The notes below the pieces were generated by a model. That model had not been told where the DNA came from. It ran no database searches and worked only from the letters and a program-made list of their open reading frames with translations. The position numbers and the translations under genes were made by a program. Below, piece by piece: positions 15,254-27,279 of a DNA stretch of 64,000 bases; position 1 is the stretch's first letter, and the number at the start of each line of letters is the position of its first letter. The stretch lies in the NCBI RefSeq assembly GCF_002931075.1, contig NZ_PSTQ01000010.1, positions 62,001 to 126,000 of the forward strand. The letters are read 5' to 3'. Origin of the DNA: Pseudoclavibacter sp. AY1F1 (GTDB lineage Bacteria; Actinomycetota; Actinomycetes; Actinomycetales; Microbacteriaceae).

Positions 15254-17842
15254 ATGCAATCTGCCGAGGAACGAACGCCATTCGGAGCCCCAGACCGAGT
15301 CCTCGTGCGGGGCGCGCGCGAGCATAACCTCCGCGATGTGGACGTGGATATCCCGCGCAACGCGCTGGTCGCGTTCACCGGCGTGTCCGGCTCCGGCAAG
15401 AGCTCCCTGGCCTTCGGGACGCTGTACGCGGAGGCGCAGCGCCGCTATTTCGAGTCTGTCGCGCCGTACGCGCGTCGCCTCATGAACCAGGTCTCCCCGC
15501 CCGACGTGGATGCGGTGGAGGGCATGCCGCCTGCGGTGGCGCTCCCGCAGCAGCGTGGCGGCGGGAGCGCTCGCTCGACGGTCGGGAGCACCTCCACAAT
15601 CGCGAACGTCGTGCGGATGCTCTTCTCGAGGGTCGGCGAGTATCCCGCGGGTGCGCCGATGCTGCTTGCCGAGGACTTCTCGGCGAACACCGTGCAGGGT
15701 GCGTGCCCGAACTGCCACGGGCTCGGCCGCGTCTACGAAGTGCCGGAGAAGCTCATGATCCCGGATGCTTCACTGAGCATCCGCGACGGGGCGATCGCCG
15801 CCTGGCCCACGGCTTGGCACGGCAAGCAGCTGCGCGACAGCCTCGTCTCGCTCGGCTACGACATCGATATCCCGTGGCGGGAGGTTCCTGCTGAGCAGAG
15901 GTCCTGGCTGCTGTCCACATCCGAGAAGCCTCAGGTGCCCGTCTTCACGGGCCTGCCGCCAGCCGAGGTGCGAGCAGCGGTGGCAGCGGGCGACGAGCCG
16001 TCGTATATGAGCACGTTCGTCGGGGTGAAGCGCTACGTGCTCGACACGTTCGCGAACTCGAAGAGCGAGCGGATGCGCGAGAAGGCGGCTGCCTTCATGG
16101 AGAGCATCCAGTGCCCCGCATGTCGTGGCACGAGGCTGAAGCCGGATGCGCTCGCCGTGACGTTCGAGGGGCGGGACATCACGGAGGTCGCCGCGATGCC
16201 GCTTCGCGAGTTGGCCGCGCTCATGAGGGGCGTGCTCGAACCTGACTGGGGTCCGGCCGGCGATCGGCGGCAGACGGCGGCGCTCGCGCCCGAGCAGGTC
16301 CACGCCGCCCGCCGCTTGGCCGGCGAGTTGTGCGCCAGGCTTGCGCCTCTCTCTGATCTCGGGCTCGGCTACCTCTCGCTCGACCGGCAGACGGGCTCGC
16401 TTTCCGGTGGTGAGCTGCAGCGGCTGCGGCTCGCGAATCAGCTGCTCGCTGGTCTCTTCGGCGTCGTGTTTGTGCTTGACGAGCCCTCGGCGGGCCTGCA
16501 TCCCGCGGACACGGAGGCGCTGCTCGGCATCCTGCGTGGCCTGCGCGATCGGGGAAACACTGTCTTCTACGTCGAGCACTCGCTCGACGTCATCCGCGAG
16601 GCCGACTGGATCGTCGACATCGGCCCGGGGGCCGGTGCTTCTGGCGGCAGTATCGTCTACTCGGGCGAGCTCAGCGGCCTCAAGAACGCCGAGGAGTCTG
16701 TGACGCGCCGCTACCTGTTCGACGGCGCCGACTCTCCGAAGCCGAGGTTCCGGGAGCCACGGCCCCGGAACCAGCACGTCACCCTCGAAGGTGTCGTGCG
16801 CAACAACATCCGCGGCCTCTCGGTGGAGTTCCCGCTCGGCTGCCTGACCGCGGTCACGGGGGTCTCCGGCTCCGGGAAGACGACGCTTGTCAACCAGGCG
16901 CTGCCGGACCTGCTTCGCGCGAGCCTTGCGAGCGAGGTCGGCGAGGTCTCGGCGGCCAGTGAGCCGGAGCGGGCTGACCCGATGCTCGCCGTCGATGCAG
17001 CGGCGACACAGGGTCGGGCCAGGGGGCCGGCGGAACGCCTCAAGCGGATCGTGCAGGTCAGCCAGGCTCCCATCGGCCGCACCTCGCGCTCGAACGTCGC
17101 GACGTACACGGGACTGTTCGACCGCATCCGCTCGCTGTTCGCGGCGACGGATGAGGCGAGGCGGCGACGATACAGCGCCAGCCGCTTCTCGTTCAACCTG
17201 CCAAGCGGTCGATGCCCGACCTGCAAGGGCGAGGGCACCATGGAAGTCGAGCTGCTCTTCCTGCCCACAGTGCAGGCGCCCTGCTCGACGTGCGGCGGTA
17301 AGCGCTACAACGCGGAGACTCTCGAGGTCGAGTTCGAGGGGTCCTCGATCGCCGACGTGCTCGACCTGAGCGTCACCGAAGCGCGGCAGAAGTTCGCGGG
17401 TCACTCCGAAGTTCTCCAGCATCTGGATGCGCTCGCGGACGTGGGCCTCGGCTACGTCTCGCTCGGCCAGCCCGCGCCTGAACTCTCCGGAGGGGAGGCG
17501 CAGCGGGTGAAGCTCGCGTCTGAGCTGCGGCGTGCGCAGCAGGGCGACACCCTTTACCTGCTCGACGAACCCACATCCGGCCTGCACCCCGCCGATTCCG
17601 ACCGCCTGCTCGGGCACCTGCACGACCTCGTCGACCTCGGCAACACCGTCATCCTGGTCGAGCACGACACGCGCGTCGTCGCGGGGGCAGATTGGGTCGT
17701 GGACATGGGGCCGGGCGCTGGGGATGAGGGCGGAGCGATCGTCGCGCAGGGCACCCCGCAAGAGGTGGCCGCGGTCGAGGGCAGTGCGACATCCGCGTAC
17801 CTGAAGGCCGCAGTGGAGCGGCTCGCGGCGACTGGGGTGTGA
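15254..17842 (+). CDS. UvrA-like tandem ABC ATPase (UvrA paralogue)
   Basis: An 862-residue protein with two UvrA-type ATPase modules: Walker A GVSGSGKSSLAFGTLY (about 45) and GVSGSGKTTLVNQAL (about 545), signatures SLSGGELQRLRLA and ELSGGEAQRVKLA, and Walker B VFVLDEPSAGLHP and LYLLDEPTSGLHP. Zinc-type Cys clusters are present (CPNCHGLG; CPACRG; CPTCKGEG; CSTCGGK). It is shorter than housekeeping UvrA (about 950), matching the UvrA2/drug-resistance branch (DrrC-like). The open frame runs 42 codons upstream; the ATG at 15254 was chosen because the conserved region begins soon after and CATGCT lies 6 nt before it. No drug cluster is adjacent. Confidence 0.82.
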   Translation: MQSAEERTPFGAPDRVLVRGAREHNLRDVDVDIPRNALVAFTGVSGSGKSSLAFGTLYAEAQRRYFESVAPYARRLMNQVSPPDVDAVEGMPPAVALPQQRGGGSARSTVGSTSTIANVVRMLFSRVGEYPAGAPMLLAEDFSANTVQGACPNCHGLGRVYEVPEKLMIPDASLSIRDGAIAAWPTAWHGKQLRDSLVSLGYDIDIPWREVPAEQRSWLLSTSEKPQVPVFTGLPPAEVRAAVAAGDEPSYMSTFVGVKRYVLDTFANSKSERMREKAAAFMESIQCPACRGTRLKPDALAVTFEGRDITEVAAMPLRELAALMRGVLEPDWGPAGDRRQTAALAPEQVHAARRLAGELCARLAPLSDLGLGYLSLDRQTGSLSGGELQRLRLANQLLAGLFGVVFVLDEPSAGLHPADTEALLGILRGLRDRGNTVFYVEHSLDVIREADWIVDIGPGAGASGGSIVYSGELSGLKNAEESVTRRYLFDGADSPKPRFREPRPRNQHVTLEGVVRNNIRGLSVEFPLGCLTAVTGVSGSGKTTLVNQALPDLLRASLASEVGEVSAASEPERADPMLAVDAAATQGRARGPAERLKRIVQVSQAPIGRTSRSNVATYTGLFDRIRSLFAATDEARRRRYSASRFSFNLPSGRCPTCKGEGTMEVELLFLPTVQAPCSTCGGKRYNAETLEVEFEGSSIADVLDLSVTEARQKFAGHSEVLQHLDALADVGLGYVSLGQPAPELSGGEAQRVKLASELRRAQQGDTLYLLDEPTSGLHPADSDRLLGHLHDLVDLGNTVILVEHDTRVVAGADWVVDMGPGAGDEGGAIVAQGTPQEVAAVEGSATSAYLKAAVERLAATGV

Positions 17843-18197: not shown

Positions 18198-19199
18198 TCA
18201 GTTGCCTGGGCCGCCTGGGCCGCCAGAACCGCCGGGGCCACCCGCGCCGCCGCCTGACGGCGCTGCCCCCGCGGTCGGTGTGGTCGTCGTATCGACTCGG
18301 ACCGTGAGGGCGACGTTGTAGCCGCTTGTCGCGTCGCCCGTGACGGTCGCGAGCTGCAGGGCACCGCCGTCGTCGCCGAAGACGTTGTCGGAGTCGAGGC
18401 TGACCTGGGCCATGTTCGGGGCGGAGCCGTCGTAGCCGGACAGGGCGTAGACGGCGTTCGATGCGTACTCGGGCAGGGCGACCTGTGAGGTCGAGATGGC
18501 GTTCGTCGACTCGGTGATGTCGTCGATCGTGGGGTAGACCTCGAAGTGGATGTGCGGCCAGCGGCCCGTGTAGCAGGCGGGGAAAATCGAGGTGAAGGTC
18601 ACGCTGCCCGAGCTGTCGGCGACCTGCACGCCCCGCAGGAAGGTCTCGTTCTCGATGCCCTCCGAGTACATGGAGTAGCCGCCCGTGGCGTCGCAGTGCC
18701 AGACGTAGACGGCGACGTTCGCGAACGGCCTGTCGCCGTTTGCCATGTCGAGGATGGTCAGTGTGAGCGTCATGGGCACGCCGACAGCGGCCGTGGTGCT
18801 GCCGATGCTTGTGCGGATGTCGCTGCGCACGACTCCGGACTGCTCAAGCACGTCCGCGCCGTTCGAGCCGTCGCCCGGATACGGGCCCGCGGTTTCGTCG
18901 GGGATCTCGTTCGCGGGCACGGTGCCCGCCGCTGCGCTCGCGGTCGGGCTGGCGGTCGCTGTGGCAGCTGCGGTGGCCGCCGCCGTGCTCGACGCCCCGG
19001 ACCCAGCCGGGGTGCACGCTGCGAGCGCCACCGTTCCGACTCCGACCCCGAAAATGCTCAGCAGGCCGCGGCGGGACATGAGCGTGCCGAGGTCGAACGA
19101 CACGCCCTGGTCGACGACCTCCTCGTCGGCACGGTCAAGAAGCCTGCCCTCGTAGGCGGGTCCGTCTGGGGTGAGGTCGGGCTCGGGGATCTTGATCAT
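18198..19199 (-). CDS. Tat-exported lipoprotein with intradiol dioxygenase fold
   Basis: A 333-residue protein. A twin-arginine signal (SRRGLLSIFG, about residue 43) is followed by a hydrophobic core and lipobox ALAAC, so a folded, metal-loaded protein is probably lipid-anchored outside the membrane. Residues 100-250 resemble intradiol ring-cleavage dioxygenases (protocatechuate 3,4-dioxygenase type): ETAGPYP, VWHCDATGGYSMYSEG and YTGRWPHIHFEVY supply the Tyr/Tyr/His/His Fe(III) ligands. The C-terminus is a Gly/Pro-rich tail (GGPGGSGGPGG). An extracytoplasmic catechol dioxygenase is unusual and the substrate is unknown. AGGAGAG precedes the ATG. It is followed by tatA. Confidence 0.82.
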   Translation of the reverse strand: MIKIPEPDLTPDGPAYEGRLLDRADEEVVDQGVSFDLGTLMSRRGLLSIFGVGVGTVALAACTPAGSGASSTAAATAAATATASPTASAAAGTVPANEIPDETAGPYPGDGSNGADVLEQSGVVRSDIRTSIGSTTAAVGVPMTLTLTILDMANGDRPFANVAVYVWHCDATGGYSMYSEGIENETFLRGVQVADSSGSVTFTSIFPACYTGRWPHIHFEVYPTIDDITESTNAISTSQVALPEYASNAVYALSGYDGSAPNMAQVSLDSDNVFGDDGGALQLATVTGDATSGYNVALTVRVDTTTTPTAGAAPSGGGAGGPGGSGGPGGPGN

Positions 19200-19369: not shown

Positions 19370-20989
19370 GTGACTCAGCAGATCGGTGTTCGGGAGTCGG
19401 GAGCGGGCAGCGAGGTTGCGCCCGGACCGGCCGGCCTGCGGCGTGCGTCCAAGCTGCGGCAGTCACTCCTGCGGCTCGGGTCGGGCGCGCTCACGAAGAC
19501 CTACGACCTGTACCACCTACATCCGGCCGTCTGGCGCTGGACCGCACGCCACTACGTGCCCGCCATGGGCGACTTCGCGAAGTTCAACGCGTGGATGATC
19601 TGCCAGCGCGCCAACCTCGACGTGCCCGCCTACCAGCGGTGGTTGCACGAGAACGACTTCAGCTTCCGCTGGTGGCAGCTGTCGAGCTACCCGGAGACGA
19701 ACAAGGACGACTACGTCAAGCGCTACACGGAAGACGAGCGCTGCTGGGGCGGCGAGATCGACACGGTCGGCACGGTCGTCGACGAATCGAGTGGGTCGAG
19801 CGGCTCGCCCTTCAACTGGATACGCGGCCGGCGCGAGCTCGCGACCATCCACAACAACGTGGCCGGGTACATCACGCTGCTCTTCGGCACGAAGAAGCTG
19901 TTCGGCATCAACGCCTTCTCGATGGGGGCGTGGGCCACTGGTACCAACACGGGGCACGCGCTCTCGAAGATCTCGATGGTCAAGAACACCGGCCCTGACA
20001 TCGACAAGATCGTCGACACGATCCGCCACTTCGGGCCGAAATACCAGTACCTCGTCAGCGCGTACCCGCCCTTCCTGAAGCACCTGCGCGACCGGCTCGA
20101 CGGCGAGGAATGGTTCGACTGGTCGAAGCATCGCCTCAACGGCTTCGTCGGGGGCGAGGCGATGACGGAGGGGCTGCGCGACTACCTTGAGGAGCGCTTC
20201 GGCCGCGTCTACTCGGGTTACGGGGCCTCCGACCTCACGATCGGGATGGCCGGCGAATCGGACGCGTGCGTGTGGCTGCGCCGAGCGATGTTCGCCGACG
20301 AGCGGCTGAGGCGGGCCCTCCTCGGCGGCGACGAGTCGCGCATCCCCATGGTCTTCCAGTACAACCCGCTCGAGACGTACCTCGAGACGAATCCGAACAA
20401 CGAGCTCGTGGTGACGCTCAACTCCTCCGCAGTGCTCAGCCCGAAGCTGCGATACAACATCGGCGACGAGGCGAAGATCCTCTCGTTCCCCGAGGTGCGA
20501 GAGAAGATCGCCGAGCTCGACCCGGCTTTGTCTCGCGCATTCCACCGGGCATTCGCGGTGCAGCGGATGAAGCTGCCGTTCCTCCTGCTCTTCGGCCGGA
20601 AGGACTCGACCATCTCCTACATGGGCGCCAACCTCTACCCGATCGACATCGAGAACGGGCTCTACCGCGACAACCCGCATGCCGGAGACATCGAGTCCTT
20701 CAAGCTCGGCCTGCTTGAACTCGACGGGCACGAGCAGCGGCCCATCGTGCACCTCCAGCTGCGCGACGGGGTGGCGCTTTCGGATAAGGACGTCGCACAG
20801 TTGAGCGAGACGACCCGGCTCGGCATCGTCGAGCACCTCGCCTCCGTCTCGCGAGACTTCGCGCAATCCCTCGACGAGGACCCGTCGACGGGCGACCTCC
20901 GCATCGAGGTGCACCCGTTCGGCACGGGGCCGTTCCTGGGAGGCAACTCGAAGATCAAGAACGTCTACGTCGTCAAGAACGCCGAGTAG
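19370..20989 (+). CDS. AMP-forming acyl ligase family protein (PaaK-like adenylation enzyme)
   Basis: A 539-residue member of the adenylate-forming superfamily, closest in layout to phenylacetate-CoA ligase (PaaK) relatives: P-loop VVDESSGSSGSPFNWIRG (about 140), A5-type YSGYGASDLTIGMAGE (about 285), and the A7/A8 region YNIGDEAKI with FGRKDSTISYMGANLYP. It should activate a carboxylic acid as an acyl-adenylate; whether CoA or another acceptor follows is not visible. The GTG at 19370 is preferred (GGGGGAG 4 nt upstream), although an ATG at 19331 is possible. It is the first gene of a tight operon with 20993-23053 and 23050-24297. Confidence 0.75.
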   Translation: MTQQIGVRESGAGSEVAPGPAGLRRASKLRQSLLRLGSGALTKTYDLYHLHPAVWRWTARHYVPAMGDFAKFNAWMICQRANLDVPAYQRWLHENDFSFRWWQLSSYPETNKDDYVKRYTEDERCWGGEIDTVGTVVDESSGSSGSPFNWIRGRRELATIHNNVAGYITLLFGTKKLFGINAFSMGAWATGTNTGHALSKISMVKNTGPDIDKIVDTIRHFGPKYQYLVSAYPPFLKHLRDRLDGEEWFDWSKHRLNGFVGGEAMTEGLRDYLEERFGRVYSGYGASDLTIGMAGESDACVWLRRAMFADERLRRALLGGDESRIPMVFQYNPLETYLETNPNNELVVTLNSSAVLSPKLRYNIGDEAKILSFPEVREKIAELDPALSRAFHRAFAVQRMKLPFLLLFGRKDSTISYMGANLYPIDIENGLYRDNPHAGDIESFKLGLLELDGHEQRPIVHLQLRDGVALSDKDVAQLSETTRLGIVEHLASVSRDFAQSLDEDPSTGDLRIEVHPFGTGPFLGGNSKIKNVYVVKNAE

Positions 20990-20992
20990 GCC

Positions 20993-23053
20993 ATGTTCAC
21001 CACCGACTTCTCGAAGGCGCCCATCCAGGGACAGGCGGAGGCGCTGGTCATCACTGAAGGCCGCAGCGCCAGCCGCGAGGGTGTGATCTGGCGTCAGCGC
21101 TTCACCGACCGCCGGGTCAGCGGTGAGCTGCTGCTCTTCGAGAGTGTCGAGCGAGCGCGTGAGGTCGCGGCCGGGCACGATGGGCGCACGAAGCTGCTGC
21201 TCGCCGAGACTCGCGGCTACTCCAACGGCATCTGGCGAGCCGATCCCGAACCACCACCCGGCGAGATGGCGCACAACCCGCACTTCGCCCCCGTCTCCAA
21301 AGAACGCGCCGAGGGGCGCACACCGCCGCTTGTCGCCGAGCCGACACGTAAGCCGAGGAAGCTGACAAGCCCGATCCCACCGCCGACGCACACGATCTTC
21401 GACACTGCATCGATGTTCGTCGGTGCAACCCGCTACACGACCCCGCTCGCCTGGGCAGTGACGGGCCGCATCTGGGGGCAGATGACCGGCAAGATGCGAA
21501 GGATGCCCGACTACTGCTGGCACGGCATCTACTGGGAGGCGCCGTGGACCCTCGGAACGCTCGCGAACTTCTCTACGCGTGACGCCCTCCTGCGCTTCGC
21601 CAGAATGCCCGAGCACACGCACCTCATGCAGTGGATCGTGAAGGACACCAGGAACGCCAACGCCGGGTTCATCCGCCTCTTCGCGAGCGAGGAGGAGCTG
21701 GCGAGTGTCGAAAGCAGCTCGGCGAACGGAGCGGATGGTCCTGGTCCTGGTGTTGTTCCTGGTGCTGTTCCTCGGACGGACGCGCAGAGTTCGGCCCTGG
21801 CTGAGTCTGCCCCGCTACCGAGATCCAACGCGACGTCCGGTCTCGCTGGGACGACGCCGAAGTCACGCGGGATCGAGGTGCGCCGCGTGCGCTCGGAGCT
21901 CGAATTCCTTGAGTTCGTCGAGCTACCGGGGCGCGTTTCCGATCCGAGCCGCGAGGTGCCCGTGCTCGAGTCGACGCTCCGGTCGTGGTGGAAGGGCCCG
22001 CGTTCTCCGCGAAGAGATTCTGCCGCGCACGAACCGGAGGTGGAGCTGCTGCTCGCCTACCGCGAGGGCACACCCCTCGCCCGAGCCGTAACGCACACAA
22101 GCGCCGCCCTCGACGCCAAGCTCGACTCGCGCCTGCAACTGTTCGGAGCCGTCACTGCGGCCGATGCGGATGCGCTCGGCGCGATCATCGGAGCCGTCGA
22201 AGCCCGAGCGGTGAAGGCAGGCCGGCAAGAGCTCCTGGGGCCCGTCACGCTCCTCCCGAACCAGGTCGGCGGTGTCATCACGAGCGGCTTCGGGGAGCGG
22301 GGCTTCGTAGAGGGGGCCTGGAACCCGGACTGGGTGCCAGCCGCCTACGAGGGGCTCGGCTTCACGACCTGGAACGAGTCGGCGACCTGGCTCGCTCGCC
22401 TTGAGCAGGGCCGCCTCGGGCAGATCGAGAGCGACGCCTTCACCGCGCCCACCGATGCGGAGCTCAAGGCCGCGGGCATCGTCATCGAGCACGCGTCGCG
22501 CCTGCGATTCCCACGCGAGGTCGCCCGCCAGCGCGAGCTTGTCAACGCTGCCTTCGCCAGGCTGCCCTACTACACACAGATCTCGCCAGCGCAGATGAGG
22601 GAGGCGACAAGCGGACTCATCGCGATCATTGACCCAAGCATCTGGGTCTTCGCGCTCGACGAGAAGACGCGCAAGCCGCTCGGCTTCCTCCTCTGCGTTC
22701 CCGACGTCACGCGCATCGTGCAGCGCTCCTCCGGCAGAATCGGGCTGAGGCAGCTGCTCGAGATCTGGCGCCAGCGCAAAGAACCGAGGGAAGCCGTGCT
22801 CACCATCCAGGGCACCATCCCCGAGGCGCGGGGCCGCGGCATCAGCACGCTCCTCGGTCGCACGGTCGGGGAGGCGCTCATCGAAGGCGGCTACACGGCG
22901 CTGCGCTCGACTTACATCGGCCGCGACAACCCAGCGTCGGCGCGGCAGCTCAGCCGCATGGGCGGCCAGGAACTGCACGAGACCGTCTTCTACCGCCGGG
23001 CTGTCGGGGCGGGTCCCGAGGGGAACGCGACACACGAGGGGGAGCAGCCATGA
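20993..23053 (+). CDS. Two-part protein: unknown N-terminal domain plus GNAT-like C-terminal half
   Basis: A 686-residue protein starting 3 nt after the ligase stop. Residues 1-235 have a compact domain ending in a beta-rich block (HGIYWEAPWTLGTL, RFARMPEHTHLMQWIV, NAGFIRLFA) that faintly recalls spheroidene-monooxygenase or dimeric alpha-beta barrel proteins. A low-complexity Ala/Ser/Gly/Pro linker covers about 240-290. Residues 295-680 resemble large GNAT acyltransferases (GAWNPDWVPAAYEGLGF; acetyl-CoA loop IPEARGRGISTLLG; NPASARQL; a final FYRR). It overlaps the nitroreductase gene by 4 bp (ATGA), so translation is coupled. The reaction is unknown; transfer of the acyl group activated by the preceding ligase is a reasonable guess. 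Confidence 0.65.
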   Translation: MFTTDFSKAPIQGQAEALVITEGRSASREGVIWRQRFTDRRVSGELLLFESVERAREVAAGHDGRTKLLLAETRGYSNGIWRADPEPPPGEMAHNPHFAPVSKERAEGRTPPLVAEPTRKPRKLTSPIPPPTHTIFDTASMFVGATRYTTPLAWAVTGRIWGQMTGKMRRMPDYCWHGIYWEAPWTLGTLANFSTRDALLRFARMPEHTHLMQWIVKDTRNANAGFIRLFASEEELASVESSSANGADGPGPGVVPGAVPRTDAQSSALAESAPLPRSNATSGLAGTTPKSRGIEVRRVRSELEFLEFVELPGRVSDPSREVPVLESTLRSWWKGPRSPRRDSAAHEPEVELLLAYREGTPLARAVTHTSAALDAKLDSRLQLFGAVTAADADALGAIIGAVEARAVKAGRQELLGPVTLLPNQVGGVITSGFGERGFVEGAWNPDWVPAAYEGLGFTTWNESATWLARLEQGRLGQIESDAFTAPTDAELKAAGIVIEHASRLRFPREVARQRELVNAAFARLPYYTQISPAQMREATSGLIAIIDPSIWVFALDEKTRKPLGFLLCVPDVTRIVQRSSGRIGLRQLLEIWRQRKEPREAVLTIQGTIPEARGRGISTLLGRTVGEALIEGGYTALRSTYIGRDNPASARQLSRMGGQELHETVFYRRAVGAGPEGNATHEGEQP

Positions 23054-24297
23054 CGGGCATCCACACGCTGAACCAGATCATCGCCGACGCCGCGTCCGCG
23101 CCGTCCGCGCACAACACGCAACCCTGGTCGCCGCGCATGATCGGCGACGGGGCCGCGGTCGAGCTGCGGGTCTCGCGCAAGCGGACGCTCCCCGCCTCCG
23201 ACCCCACCGGACGCGACACCCTGCTCGGGTTGGGCGCCTGGCTCGAGGCGTTCAGCGTCAGCGCGGCCGCGCACGGGGTCGACTTCGAGGTTGAGGTCCT
23301 GCCCGCGCTCGCTGACCCGGAGGCCATCGTGCACGCGAGGAGCGACGAGCCCGTGCTCCGCATCGAGCTGCGCGAAGCCGGAGGCGGCCCAGGGGCCGAT
23401 TCAGTCGACGGCGCCATGAACGTGCGCGCCAGTGTCGGCGCCGGTGTCAGCGCGACCGGCACCGGAACCCACTCGCAGGGCACGGCGGCGGATACGCCTG
23501 GCAGCGGGAGCGCCCCCGCCGGCGGCGCGGAACCTGTGCCCTCGGCCGGCCCGGATTCCGACCGACAGCTGCTGGCGTCGCGGAGGACGGTGCGCGGTGA
23601 TCTCGCGCCAGCGAAGGGGCTTGTGATCGAGCTCGCGAACGCGCTGCCTGCCTGGCTGCGGCTCGTGCCCGTCGACGCGGACGACCTGCGGCACTTCTCC
23701 GCGCTCGGCACCGCCGACACTTTGCGCGAACCTGCCATCGCTCGCGAGCTTGCGCACTGGCTGCGTCTGCACCCCTCGCATCCGCGCTACGACGTCGACG
23801 GTCTCAACAACAAGGTGCTCGGGGTGCCCGCGTTGGTGTCCCGGCTTGCGTCGGCGTTCACACGGAAGCGGCGCCTGCGCGAGGCAGCGGTGCGCGTCGT
23901 GGCCCCAGTCGGAGAGCTGTGGCGGCGGGTGCTGCTCGAGGTGCCAGTCTCGGCGGCTGGCGAGGACGCCCCTGCCGCCGCGGCAGCGTTCGTCCTGGTC
24001 GCAGACACGAAGCTGCTCGACCTCGGATCTGGAGCCGATGCGACGCGGGTGCTCAACTCTCCGCTCGGACTCTCACCAGAACGGGTGCTCGAGGCCGGCC
24101 AGGCGCTCATGCGGCTGTGGCTGCTTGCGAGCGCGCGCGGGGCGGCGTTTTCGCCAGCCTCCGAGATCATCGACTCGTCGCTCGCGCAAGGCGAGCTGCG
24201 CTACAGGCTCGGACTCTCGCGCCGTGATGTGCCGCTGTTCATCACAAGGGTCGGTGTTCCGAAGGACCCGAACCCGCCACGCGCCCCGCGTCGGTGA
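23050..24297 (+). CDS. Acg-like nitroreductase family protein
   Basis: A 415-residue protein with the hallmark ASAPSAHNTQPW at residues 14-25, as in Acg (Rv2032)-type nitroreductase-fold proteins that bind flavin. A second conserved block is SRRTVRGDLAPA (about 178), and the C-terminal half has LEAGQALMRLWLLA and YRLGLSRRD. A low-complexity Gly/Ala/Ser insertion (about 118-170) separates the two halves. Some Acg proteins sequester FMN and lack catalysis, while others act as oxidases or dehydrogenases in biosynthesis. It is the last gene of the three-gene operon and is translationally coupled to the preceding gene. Confidence 0.78.
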   Translation: MTGIHTLNQIIADAASAPSAHNTQPWSPRMIGDGAAVELRVSRKRTLPASDPTGRDTLLGLGAWLEAFSVSAAAHGVDFEVEVLPALADPEAIVHARSDEPVLRIELREAGGGPGADSVDGAMNVRASVGAGVSATGTGTHSQGTAADTPGSGSAPAGGAEPVPSAGPDSDRQLLASRRTVRGDLAPAKGLVIELANALPAWLRLVPVDADDLRHFSALGTADTLREPAIARELAHWLRLHPSHPRYDVDGLNNKVLGVPALVSRLASAFTRKRRLREAAVRVVAPVGELWRRVLLEVPVSAAGEDAPAAAAAFVLVADTKLLDLGSGADATRVLNSPLGLSPERVLEAGQALMRLWLLASARGAAFSPASEIIDSSLAQGELRYRLGLSRRDVPLFITRVGVPKDPNPPRAPRR

Positions 24298-24329: not shown

Positions 24330-25259
24330 TCAGCCCAGCTGCCGCATCCAGTCGCTGAGCAGGTCGATGCCGCGCACGAAGGCAGGGTCGCGCGGACGGT
24401 TCAGGAACGCATGCGAGCTGCCGGGGAGCACGCGGTACTCGGTGTCGACACCGGCGTCGTGGAGCTCGCGCGCGAAGAGCGAACCGGATGCGCGCATCGC
24501 GTCGCGGTCCGCATCCACGACCAGCGAGGGCGGGAACCCGCTCAGGTCGTGCCCGCCTGGGAACGCGTCCGGCCGCGACAAGACCTCCTCGCTGCCCGCG
24601 TAGTTGAGGTTCATCGCACCGATGAGCCATGGTGTGTGCACGTAGCGGCGGCCGCCGCGCAGGCGACTCAGCAGCTCGGGGGACCGCGCCGGCAGCCGCG
24701 CGTGGAACGTCCCGTAGGTCAGGAAGAGCCCGCGGATCGGGGAGGCTCCGGCACGCTCGAGCCGGTACGCCGCGCCCGCTGCGAGACACGCGCCCGCGCT
24801 GGCGCCGCCGAGCACCAGCCCCTCCGGTGACCGCGCGCTGACGGTCGCCACCACCGCGAGCACGTCGTCGAGCGACACCGGGTAGCGCACCTCGGGGTGG
24901 TCGTCACGGCGCGACTTGCACGTCCGGTGTCTGTCGTCCGCGGTGCCCCCGCCGCTCGCATCCGCCGCCTTGGACTTCGCGCGACCTCCGAGCGTCACGA
25001 GCCGGTAGTCGACGGTCGTCACCTCGAACCCGGCGCGGGCCAAAGCGAAAGCCACCTCGTGCGTCTCCGGCTGGGCGAGCCCGCCGGAGTAGAAGCCACC
25101 GCCGTGCAGCCAGATGAAGGGCAGAACGGGCGAGCGCAGGGCGCCGCGAGCAGGGGAGGCAGGGGAGTAGGTGCGCACCGGGACCGGCCCGTGGGGCCCG
25201 ACGACGGCGGAATTCGTCGCCTCCACCCCGTGCGGTGCGGTCAGCGAGCGTCTCGGCAT
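24330..25259 (-). CDS. Alpha/beta hydrolase, hormone-sensitive-lipase (HSL) family
   Basis: A 309-residue esterase. The oxyanion motif is LHGGGFYSGG (about 62), the nucleophile elbow GGASAGACLAAG (about 165), the acid VVDADRDAM (about 250) and the histidine GSSHAFLNRP (about 282), a complete HSL-type catalytic triad. The start is the ATG at 25259, with TATGGT 6 nt upstream. It runs toward the ligase/GNAT/nitroreductase operon and is convergent with it, 32 bp apart, which suggests but does not prove a functional link. The substrate is unknown. Confidence 0.85.
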   Translation of the reverse strand: MPRRSLTAPHGVEATNSAVVGPHGPVPVRTYSPASPARGALRSPVLPFIWLHGGGFYSGGLAQPETHEVAFALARAGFEVTTVDYRLVTLGGRAKSKAADASGGGTADDRHRTCKSRRDDHPEVRYPVSLDDVLAVVATVSARSPEGLVLGGASAGACLAAGAAYRLERAGASPIRGLFLTYGTFHARLPARSPELLSRLRGGRRYVHTPWLIGAMNLNYAGSEEVLSRPDAFPGGHDLSGFPPSLVVDADRDAMRASGSLFARELHDAGVDTEYRVLPGSSHAFLNRPRDPAFVRGIDLLSDWMRQLG

Positions 25260-25296
25260 CAGCCCACCATACGGGCACACACTCTAGGCTCTTCCA

Positions 25297-25956
25297 ATGC
25301 ACGAGCTACGTCTCTCCCCGGAAACCCAGCGTCGCGCCATCGCTCTGAACATGCGGCAGTCCTGGATCAGCCTGGCCATGCTCGCGCCCATCCTCCTGGT
25401 GCTCGTCGTCATCTTCTCCCTCCAGGATTTCTGGCTCGGCTTCGGCTACGGGATGCTCGTTGTTCTGCTCATCGGCGGCTCCGTGCCGCTCTCGATCTGG
25501 CTCGCCCGCAAGTCCATGCGCGAGACTTACATCCGGTTCGGCGACGGCTGGATCGAGCACAGGTGGATGTTCCGCACGCGCCGGTTTTCCGCGGCCGAGG
25601 CGACCAGCGTCGTCACGGTCGACCAGATGACGCTCGGCGGCTTCATGGGTGCCCCCACGCACCACCTCATCGTCACGGGCGGCGACCGCAGGCTGCTGAT
25701 CCTCGTCGGACAGATGTGGACCCAGCAGCAGCTCACCGCGGTCATGCAGGACCTCGCGAGCCGCGGCGTGCCGTGGATCTCCGTCCCCGAGCCGATCACC
25801 CCTCCGCAGCTGCGCGCCAGGGACCCGCGCCTCGTGCCCTGGTGGCAGGCGCATCCGGTGGCCTTCGCGCTCTTGATCGCGGGTGCGACGTTCGCCGTCG
25901 TCATCGTGCTGGCAATCGTCGTGGCCTTCGCGATCTTCACGGCAACGACGAGCTGA
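25297..25956 (+). CDS. Membrane protein with a PH-like cytoplasmic domain
   Basis: A 219-residue protein with two adjacent N-terminal helices (ISLAMLAPILLVLVVIFSL; GMLVVLLIGGSVPLSIWL), a soluble middle domain of about 110 residues rich in strands (YIRFGDGWIEHRWMFRTRRF; LIVTGGDRRLLILVG), and a C-terminal helix (FALLIAGATFAVVIVLAIVV). The arrangement resembles actinobacterial bPH-domain membrane proteins. TAGGCT lies 6 nt before the ATG. The divergent hydrolase start is only 37 bp away, so the two promoters overlap. Confidence 0.6.
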   Translation: MHELRLSPETQRRAIALNMRQSWISLAMLAPILLVLVVIFSLQDFWLGFGYGMLVVLLIGGSVPLSIWLARKSMRETYIRFGDGWIEHRWMFRTRRFSAAEATSVVTVDQMTLGGFMGAPTHHLIVTGGDRRLLILVGQMWTQQQLTAVMQDLASRGVPWISVPEPITPPQLRARDPRLVPWWQAHPVAFALLIAGATFAVVIVLAIVVAFAIFTATTS

Positions 25957-25958
25957 CC

Positions 25959-26166
25959 GGGCCGGGCTGAGCTGAGCTGAGCTGCGCTGGCAGAGCAGAG
26001 CAGAGCCGAACCGAGCCGAGCCGAACCGAACCGAACCGAACCGAGCCGCGCCGAGCCGGGCCGGGCTGAGCTGAGCTGAGCTGCGCTGGCAGAGCAGAGC
26101 AGAGCAGAGCCGAGCCGAGCCGAGCCGAGCCGAGCCGAGCCGAGCCGAGCCGAGCCGAGTTGAGCC
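25959..26166. repeat. GAGCC/GAGCT pentanucleotide tract with a duplicated 48-bp block
   Basis: The 208 bp between two genes are almost wholly 5-bp units (GAGCT, GAACC, GAGCC, AGAGC). Two identical 48-bp blocks beginning GGGCCGGGCTGAGCTGAG occupy 25959-26006 and 26058-26105. An uninterrupted run of GAGCC follows from about 26106 to 26157. No coding function is apparent. Slippage is likely, so copy number may differ between strains. Confidence 0.85.
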
Positions 26167-26229
26167 GGCGGACCGGGCCGCTGGGCGACGCCTGGGCGCG
26201 GGCCCCGCCCGGCGTCCTACGCTGAGCAC

Positions 26230-27279
26230 GTGCGCTCCCTCACTCGTCTCACCGGCCTCGACCGGATACAGGCGAGCAAGCGCGTGCCCGCCCTGCAGGT
26301 CGCGAAGACCGCCATCGCTGCGGTCGGGGCGTGGCTGCTCGCCGGCTGGCTCATCCCCGGCCCGCTACCGGTGTTCGCTGCCGTGGCCGCCCTGCTCGTT
26401 GTGCAGCCGAGCGTCAACCAGTCGTTCGCGAAGGCCCTCGAGCGAAGCGCCGGAGTGGTCATCGGCGTGGCCGTCGCGAGCGCCATCTCGCTGGTGCTTG
26501 GGCCGCAGTCGTGGGTGATCCTCCTCGCCATCGTCGTCGCCATGATCGTCGCGTGGCTGCTGCGCATGACCTCCACGACCAGCAACCAGGTCGCGATCAG
26601 CGCCATGCTGGTCCTCGCGCTCGGCGCATCCACCCCCGAGTACGCGCTCGACCGCATCCTCGAAACCCTCATCGGCGCCGCGTTCGGGTTGCTCATCAAC
26701 GCCGTGATCTTGCCGCCCGTGCTCGTCGGTCCGGCCCAGCGCGACACCGCGATGCTCGGCAACGAGATCGCCGCGTCGCTCGAGCGCCTCGCCGACGCCA
26801 TCGAGCAGCCCCAGACGCCCGCGAGCCTCACCGAAATGCTCCTCAAGGCCCGCCTCCTGCGGCCCATGGCGGGTGCCGCCGAGAACTCCATCGCCGACGG
26901 ACTCGAGTCGCTCGCCTTCAACCCGCGGAAGTCGAGGCACCACGAGGAGCTCGTCGAATGCCGCGAGCTGCTCGACCGCTTCCGCCCCATCGTCACGCAG
27001 CTCACCGGCATGACCCGCGCCGTCGCCGAACACTGGGAGCCGACGCTCGCCGACGAACCGCAGGCCATCGCCATCGCCGAGCAGCTGCGACGGGCCGCGC
27101 ACGACACGCGCATCCTCATTCCGAGCGAGCCCGGGGAGCCGAAGGCGTTCATCCTGGAGCCGCCGGCGCTGACCGCCCCACTCGTCGTCTCCGCACCCAA
27201 GGGAGGCAGCTGGGTGCTCATCGGCTCGCTCATCGAAGACCTCCGCCGCATCCACGAAGGCCTCACCGCCGAGGCGTAG
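26230..27279 (+). CDS. FUSC-family membrane protein (aromatic acid exporter-like)
   Basis: A 349-residue protein. The first 170 residues carry four to six hydrophobic helices typical of the FUSC N-terminus (LQVAKTAIAAVGAWLLAGWL; VAALLVVQPSVNQSF; ERSAGVVIGVAVASAISL; ILETLIGAAFGLLINAV). The rest is a helical cytoplasmic domain. Relatives include aromatic-acid efflux proteins, but many bacterial members have no known substrate. The GTG start follows TACGCT by 6 nt. The gene stands alone between repeat tracts. Confidence 0.8.
   Translation: MRSLTRLTGLDRIQASKRVPALQVAKTAIAAVGAWLLAGWLIPGPLPVFAAVAALLVVQPSVNQSFAKALERSAGVVIGVAVASAISLVLGPQSWVILLAIVVAMIVAWLLRMTSTTSNQVAISAMLVLALGASTPEYALDRILETLIGAAFGLLINAVILPPVLVGPAQRDTAMLGNEIAASLERLADAIEQPQTPASLTEMLLKARLLRPMAGAAENSIADGLESLAFNPRKSRHHEELVECRELLDRFRPIVTQLTGMTRAVAEHWEPTLADEPQAIAIAEQLRRAAHDTRILIPSEPGEPKAFILEPPALTAPLVVSAPKGGSWVLIGSLIEDLRRIHEGLTAEA

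Follow-up and report, generated by a model that had tools for sequence, protein, structure and literature searches.

The window, the whole 64,000-nucleotide stretch of Pseudoclavibacter sp. AY1F1 DNA that was analysed, carries a version of a compact block of four predicted functions, namely a ligase that would activate an acid, a small protein resembling monooxygenases, a transferase of fatty-acyl groups and a flavin oxidase, whose parts stay linked in many Actinobacteria of soil and skin. The block is real and well conserved and represents an apparently undescribed pathway assembled from known enzyme families in a differing combination, which is set apart from the nearest known pathway by its activating enzyme, its type of acyltransferase and an added oxygenase. 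We tentatively suggest, with somewhat less than even confidence, that the four enzymes of the locus form a complete pathway of their own, leading to a small N-acylated metabolite that is probably an acyl derivative of an amino acid. The cassette was not found described in the literature searched, which covered few subscription journals.

The operon of genes A, B and C is real. The first-pass annotation had placed three reading frames here, separated by 3 bp and by a 4-bp overlap, and both junctions could be read directly from the sequence, a 3-bp gap between A and B (tag gcc atg) and a 4-bp ATGA overlap between B and C. All three frames, together with that of the following esterase (D), were chosen as genes by a codon-usage gene caller, and relatives keep the gene order and spacing far beyond chance. 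The GTG start of gene A is preceded by GGGGGAGC, and a sigma-70 consensus scan found no promoter. The features are listed below.

19370-20989, + strand: gene A, 539 aa, GTG start; PaaK-type adenylating enzyme (ANL superfamily), as judged from motifs and model
19781-19810, + strand: A3 phosphate-loop motif DESSGSSGSP of A, residues 138-147
20951-20959, + strand: C-terminal KIK of A, residues 528-530, candidate A10 catalytic lysine
20993-23053, + strand: gene B, 686 aa, BN-BC fusion protein
20993-21730, + strand: BN part of B, residues 1-246; two tandem dimeric alpha/beta-barrel-like units, af470/ABM-like
21848-23014, + strand: BC part of B, residues 286-674; tandem GNAT, predicted N-acyltransferase
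23050-24297, + strand: gene C, 415 aa, Acg-type flavin-dependent oxidase, nitroreductase superfamily by sequence
23764-23766, + strand: Arg239 of C, in the E-x3-WLR motif (E233, W237 and R239 invariant)
24330-25280, - strand: D, alpha/beta hydrolase (HSL-type esterase), convergent; Abhydrolase_3 E 2e-30

One scan with A yielded 80 actinobacterial loci, in which the cassette parts were sought by six-frame profile searches; as the loci were collected through A, its own presence is given, and the result is the presence of BN, BC and C. All four parts occur in 80/80 genomes carrying cassette-type A, so that the homologues, whose co-occurrence had been proposed as a check, are not independent, and 78 of the 80 loci hold A-BN-BC-C adjacent in that order. 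Of these, 77 pass the compact-span filter, and the 78th, from Auritidibacter, fails only through a second partial BC-C copy, a fragment lying downstream of the complete cassette (L120:19139-19694). Two Streptacidiphilus genomes have an A-BN-C locus and a BC on another contig (E about 1e-116). This separate BC lies between rplI and MATE/dnaB genes (the names ssb, rpsR and rplI were read from protein sequences), the very site that the whole cassette occupies in Streptomyces and Embleya relatives, and in the tree it groups with Streptomyces cassette BC (support 99/98), indicating that the operon was split while all four functions were retained. The complete set was also present in a 35% GC genome from another family of the phylum. 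Among 150 genomes of the window's own family, Microbacteriaceae, the cassette is patchy: a high-score A was found in 6, all with BC adjoining, a distant A type in three, and BC without A in two. Orphan BC genes of the cassette clade lie at L058:8804-9895 and L059:7828-8946, in Microbacteriaceae without A. Protein-distance correlations among the four proteins (0.5-0.8) were obtained without species-tree control and were not counted as evidence. A conserved small ORF, exporter or carrier protein was found in none of the 80 neighbourhoods, which supports the earlier remark that no carrier protein, peptide substrate or exporter is visible and rules out a carrier-protein or peptide system.

Gene A had been labelled PaaK-like, and this label is upheld by a match to NCBIfam PaaK (E 3e-5) and by its AlphaFold model (pLDDT 82.8), which superposes on PaaK1 (2y27) with Z 28.4 and an rmsd of 3.1 Å over 403 residues. 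In the structure search the closest folds were PaaK1 and 2-hydroxyisobutyryl-CoA ligase; NatL2 (Z 25) and ClxA (Z 24) were also matched, and the EhpF structures (Z 17-18) and GH3 enzymes ranked below these two. Against TIGR02155, the PaaK phenylacetate-CoA ligase equivalog, A scores 22.8 bits, below the curated cut-off of 646 bits. The SSGSSGxP loop, YGASD, RYNIGDE, GRxDST and the C-terminal KxK are invariant or near-invariant in 31 orthologues, in which D138, E139, S140, S141, G142, S143, S144 and G145 never vary and P147 hardly does. A thus retains every adenylation motif, whereas a loss of catalytic residues had been considered beforehand, and by sequence and model it is an intact PaaK-type adenylating enzyme of the ANL superfamily. 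It shares its fold and ATP-dependent acid activation with NatL2, AjiA1 and ClxA, the PaaK-family non-thioesterifying ligases, but is only about 15% identical to them. NatL2, a PaaK-type enzyme, forms no CoA thioester and serves benzoxazole formation (PMC7204872), a process that ClxA serves too; the partner of NatL2 is an amidohydrolase, whereas the partners of A are a flavin-dependent oxidase of the FDO subgroup and a GNAT protein.

The Acg-type label given to C likewise stands, with an NF047509 (Acg/Rv3131) match of E 8e-39 at 134 bits, below the family cut-off of 199 bits, and a profile match to Acg 2ymv (E 2e-17). The homology of C to both Acg and TrzS spans the whole protein and takes in APSxHN.QP as well as the conserved Arg discussed below, and its sequence assigns it to the FDO subgroup of the nitroreductase superfamily. 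With the Acg/Rv3131 FMN proteins it shares the APSxHNTQPW motif and the overall family, but it differs from them in its score under the cut-off, its separate clade and its linkage to A. In a maximum-likelihood tree, separate groups are formed by cassette C, pair C (described below), Acg and the oxidase domains of TrzS (Rv1355c), except that pair_L181, on a long branch, groups with cassette C; since C belongs to neither the TrzS nor the Acg clade, its reaction may differ from theirs. The E-x3-WLR motif aligns with EMVSELRWP of TrzS. In two correctable TrzS homologues the aligned Arg is numbered 537-541 after start correction, so that it is probably R540, and R239 of C would by position be its probable counterpart. 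Substitution of TrzS R540 impaired desaturation (PMC12856293), and the FDO members studied desaturate N-acyl amino acids (PMC10404671, PMC12856293).

A second A subfamily, about 35% identical to cassette A (34% in the alignment), occurs in pairs with C. Most ANL motifs of A, as well as K528 and K530, are kept in these pair-type proteins, which adjoin a C-like flavin oxidase in 9/9 genomes with a readable neighbour (L062-L064, L177-L182). None of these nine genomes contains BC, and BN is absent or, in two, represented by a very weak partial match, indicating that the most constant partner of A is C. An incomplete A at L183 is without C, and no C was seen near the A of two less similar low-GC relatives.

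Gene B had been described as a two-part protein with GNAT features. The C-terminal GNAT part is confirmed (FR47 E 0.0013), but the two parts are two fused enzymes, and BN is a fourth activity that had been missed. In most relatives (Agreia, Subtercola, Cellulomonas, Micromonospora, Streptomyces and others) BN and BC are separate genes, of ~140-330 aa and ~350-430 aa, respectively. Pseudoclavibacter and two Microbacterium species have the BN-BC fusion, with one more at locus L146 by profile search, and a BC-C fusion occurs in Brevibacterium, Nesterenkonia and others (7 and 11 cases, respectively); the two proteins joined in B are thus fused only in certain lineages.

Matches of the BN family to PF13826 (af470-like monooxygenase) are weak but consistent, covering 25 of 29 members with a best E of 1.7e-5; two members score 20-22 bits against a gathering threshold of 25 bits, and the window's BN alone gave no match at E 0.01. 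The secondary structure of the B model was also used in defining the two BN units. In the alignment the first BN unit holds the GYSNGIWRA tail (GYxNGxWRAE across the lineage) and the second a W-H-Y / HxxLMxW core, from which BN in the window's lineage reads as a tandem duplication whose copies keep different motifs. A PDB sequence search with BN returned no match, and structure searches with the whole B model (pLDDT 84.3), which barely probed BN, had only GNAT chains among the matches listed. BN is predicted to be a dimeric alpha/beta-barrel, af470-monooxygenase-like protein with a role in oxygenation. It resembles the af470 (Fma-MO) monooxygenases in its small domain of the dimeric alpha/beta-barrel type, but the displayed members fall below the Pfam gathering score, and BN is fused to or paired with an acyltransferase.

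The BC model matches MAB_4324 (7q3a, Z 24.4) and MshD (mycothiol synthase; 2c27, Z 22.3), and as modelled BC is two GNAT domains in one chain, with predicted N-acyltransferase activity. In a phylum sample, 17 of 27 non-cassette BC homologues adjoin an Spt-like aminotransferase, and 6 of these 17 also a CerR-like epimerase. Such an Spt-linked setting has been described for ceramide synthesis in Caulobacter (PMC11087976, PMC11324152). BC is homologous over the full tandem-GNAT length to the Spt-linked acyltransferases, the proteins compared here in place of bCerS itself, but the cassette loci, in contrast to the ceramide operons (Spt - bCerS - CerR), are without Spt and CerR. In the tree, cassette BC forms a separate clade (support 100/100) apart from the non-cassette homologues. 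Operons of an Spt-like gene, a tandem GNAT and an epimerase, possibly for ceramide synthesis, were seen in two distant members of the phylum (L065:7310-10641, L066:7878-10263). The plasmid collection contained only distant BC homologues, except for one Nonomuraea replicon.

The nearest known systems are OxzAB, TyzABC (Rv2336/Rv2338c/Rv2337c) and TrzAS (Rv1356c/Rv1355c), in which the N-acyl amino acid made by an acyltransferase is activated and cyclised by an ATP-using ThiF enzyme and desaturated by an O2-dependent FDO (PMC10404671, PMC12856293); a like gene set has been proposed for stieleriacines (PMC12479983). The cassette likewise combines an adenylating enzyme, an Acg/FDO-type oxidase and a predicted N-acyltransferase in a compact locus, without a carrier protein and with fusions among the parts (PMC10404671, PMC12856293). 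The A-C pair corresponds to the fusion of ThiF and oxidase seen in OxzB and TrzS, and the adjacency and fusion of BC with C place an FDO gene beside a predicted N-acyltransferase gene. However, the adenylating enzyme is ANL/PaaK-type rather than ThiF, the acyltransferase is of the tandem-GNAT and not of the FeeM/AHL-synthase-like type, BN is extra, and the oxidase falls in its own clade. No ThiF-type cyclase was found in the cassette; in the same genome NF005901 matched a ThiF-like protein on another contig and gene C, both under the cut-off. The cassette probably makes an undescribed small acylated compound, and its parts resemble, but do not match, the acyl-oxazolone pathway of the tuberculosis bacterium.

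Taken with the observed gene set, domain and fold assignments, A motifs, obligate co-occurrence and fusions, the substrates, order of steps, ring closure, product and role of BN could be envisaged as follows. BC would move an acyl group from acyl-CoA or acyl-ACP onto an amine, most likely an amino acid. A would then adenylate the free carboxylate of the N-acyl product with ATP, by analogy with the oxazolone pathways, and the acyl-adenylate would be captured within the molecule, in an oxazolone-like ring closure, or by another nucleophile. C would take away two hydrogens with O2, and BN could carry out a further oxygenation. The first-pass annotation had read the gene order as acid activation, then acyl transfer, then a flavin step; a single biosynthetic unit with these three activities is supported, but the data do not establish that order, and N-acylation may come first. 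An N-acyl amino-acid-type product with A-catalysed activation or cyclisation is considered most likely, because the three roles are oxazolone-like, with A standing in for ThiF, and NatL2 offers a precedent. Also in favour are the FDO group of C with the position of R239, and the Spt-linked relatives of BC; counting against it are the lack of a ThiF gene in the cassette, the position of C outside the TrzS and Acg clades, the two Microbacteriaceae genomes with BC but no A, the lack of a place for BN in known oxazolone pathways, and the possibility that A is an ordinary CoA ligase feeding BC. To our knowledge, no ANL enzyme closes an oxazolone. A further and rather unlikely proposition is that the cassette represents a ThiF-independent route to acyl-oxazolone or dehydroamino-acyl lipids, widespread and unnoticed in Actinobacteria, with an ANL ligase and an own-clade flavin oxidase as core, to which an af470-type oxygenase and a tandem GNAT of the ceramide-synthase-like kind were added.

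The main alternative, which we consider unlikely, is that A closes no ring but acts simply as an acyl-CoA (or acyl-AMP) ligase supplying the acyl donor to BC, which would N- or O-acylate a lipid-like amine before BN and C tailor the product. PaaK1 and 2-hydroxyisobutyryl-CoA ligase as the closest folds to A would agree with this, as would the BC relatives in ceramide operons, but the steadiest partner of A is C and not BC, as the nine A-C genomes without BC illustrate, and PaaK-type ligases mostly take aryl or short acids. The Caulobacter sphingolipid region also holds an acyl-ACP synthetase, AasR (PMC11324152), which speaks for such a donor ligase. Quite improbable is a carboxylate-modifying A-C module, in which A adenylates an acid that C reduces (to the aldehyde) or oxidises, BC and BN coming later. 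The PaaK-like EhpF, whose structures match A at Z 17-18, reportedly activates a phenazine acid for reduction, and A-C pairs do occur alone. Nevertheless, FDO proteins of known function are O2-dependent desaturases (PMC10404671), which argues against such a module. Modification or detoxification of xenobiotic acids or amines by conjugation, with the esterase and an aromatic-acid exporter as partners, is very improbable, for although the window has two suggestive neighbours, an ArAE/FUSC-type exporter gene at 26230-27279 and one for a dioxygenase-like protein at 18198-19199, neither is conserved outside Pseudoclavibacter, and the flanks elsewhere are unrelated housekeeping genes.

These flanking genes (SHMT, FolD, PurU, RNA polymerase alpha and DnaB) are ruled out as partners. 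The esterase noted earlier at the far end does face the operon, but it is an accessory that the Microbacteriaceae version may have or lack: in Agreia and Subtercola a related hydrolase gene lies after C in the same direction, whereas in Pseudoclavibacter it is reversed, and its occurrence in only some Microbacteriaceae and absence from most cassettes indicate that it is probably not part of the core.

Acg/FDO-type flavin oxidases are numerous in Actinobacteria and few of their functions are known, and an obligate ANL partner gives the new FDO clade a testable biochemical context. The cassette would also extend the ceramide-synthase-like GNAT family to a new use outside sphingolipids and points to a probable class of metabolites in Pseudoclavibacter, Agreia, Brevibacterium, Cellulomonas, Micromonospora and Actinoplanes relatives, from loci that carrier-protein-based cluster finders may miss.

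Further observations concern the surrounding window. The gene at 18198-19199 (- strand), divergent from A, is intradiol-dioxygenase-like (PF00775 E 3e-9); its protein has a long low-complexity, apparently exported N-terminal region, and its position is conserved in Pseudoclavibacter. Between a 219-aa ORF and the exporter gene, about 44 copies of the pentamer CGAGC occupy 25949-26167. A UvrA-like ABC protein (UvrA DNA-binding domain E 1e-14) is encoded at 15254-17842 (+ strand), and a GC-rich open frame of 727 aa runs antisense to this gene.
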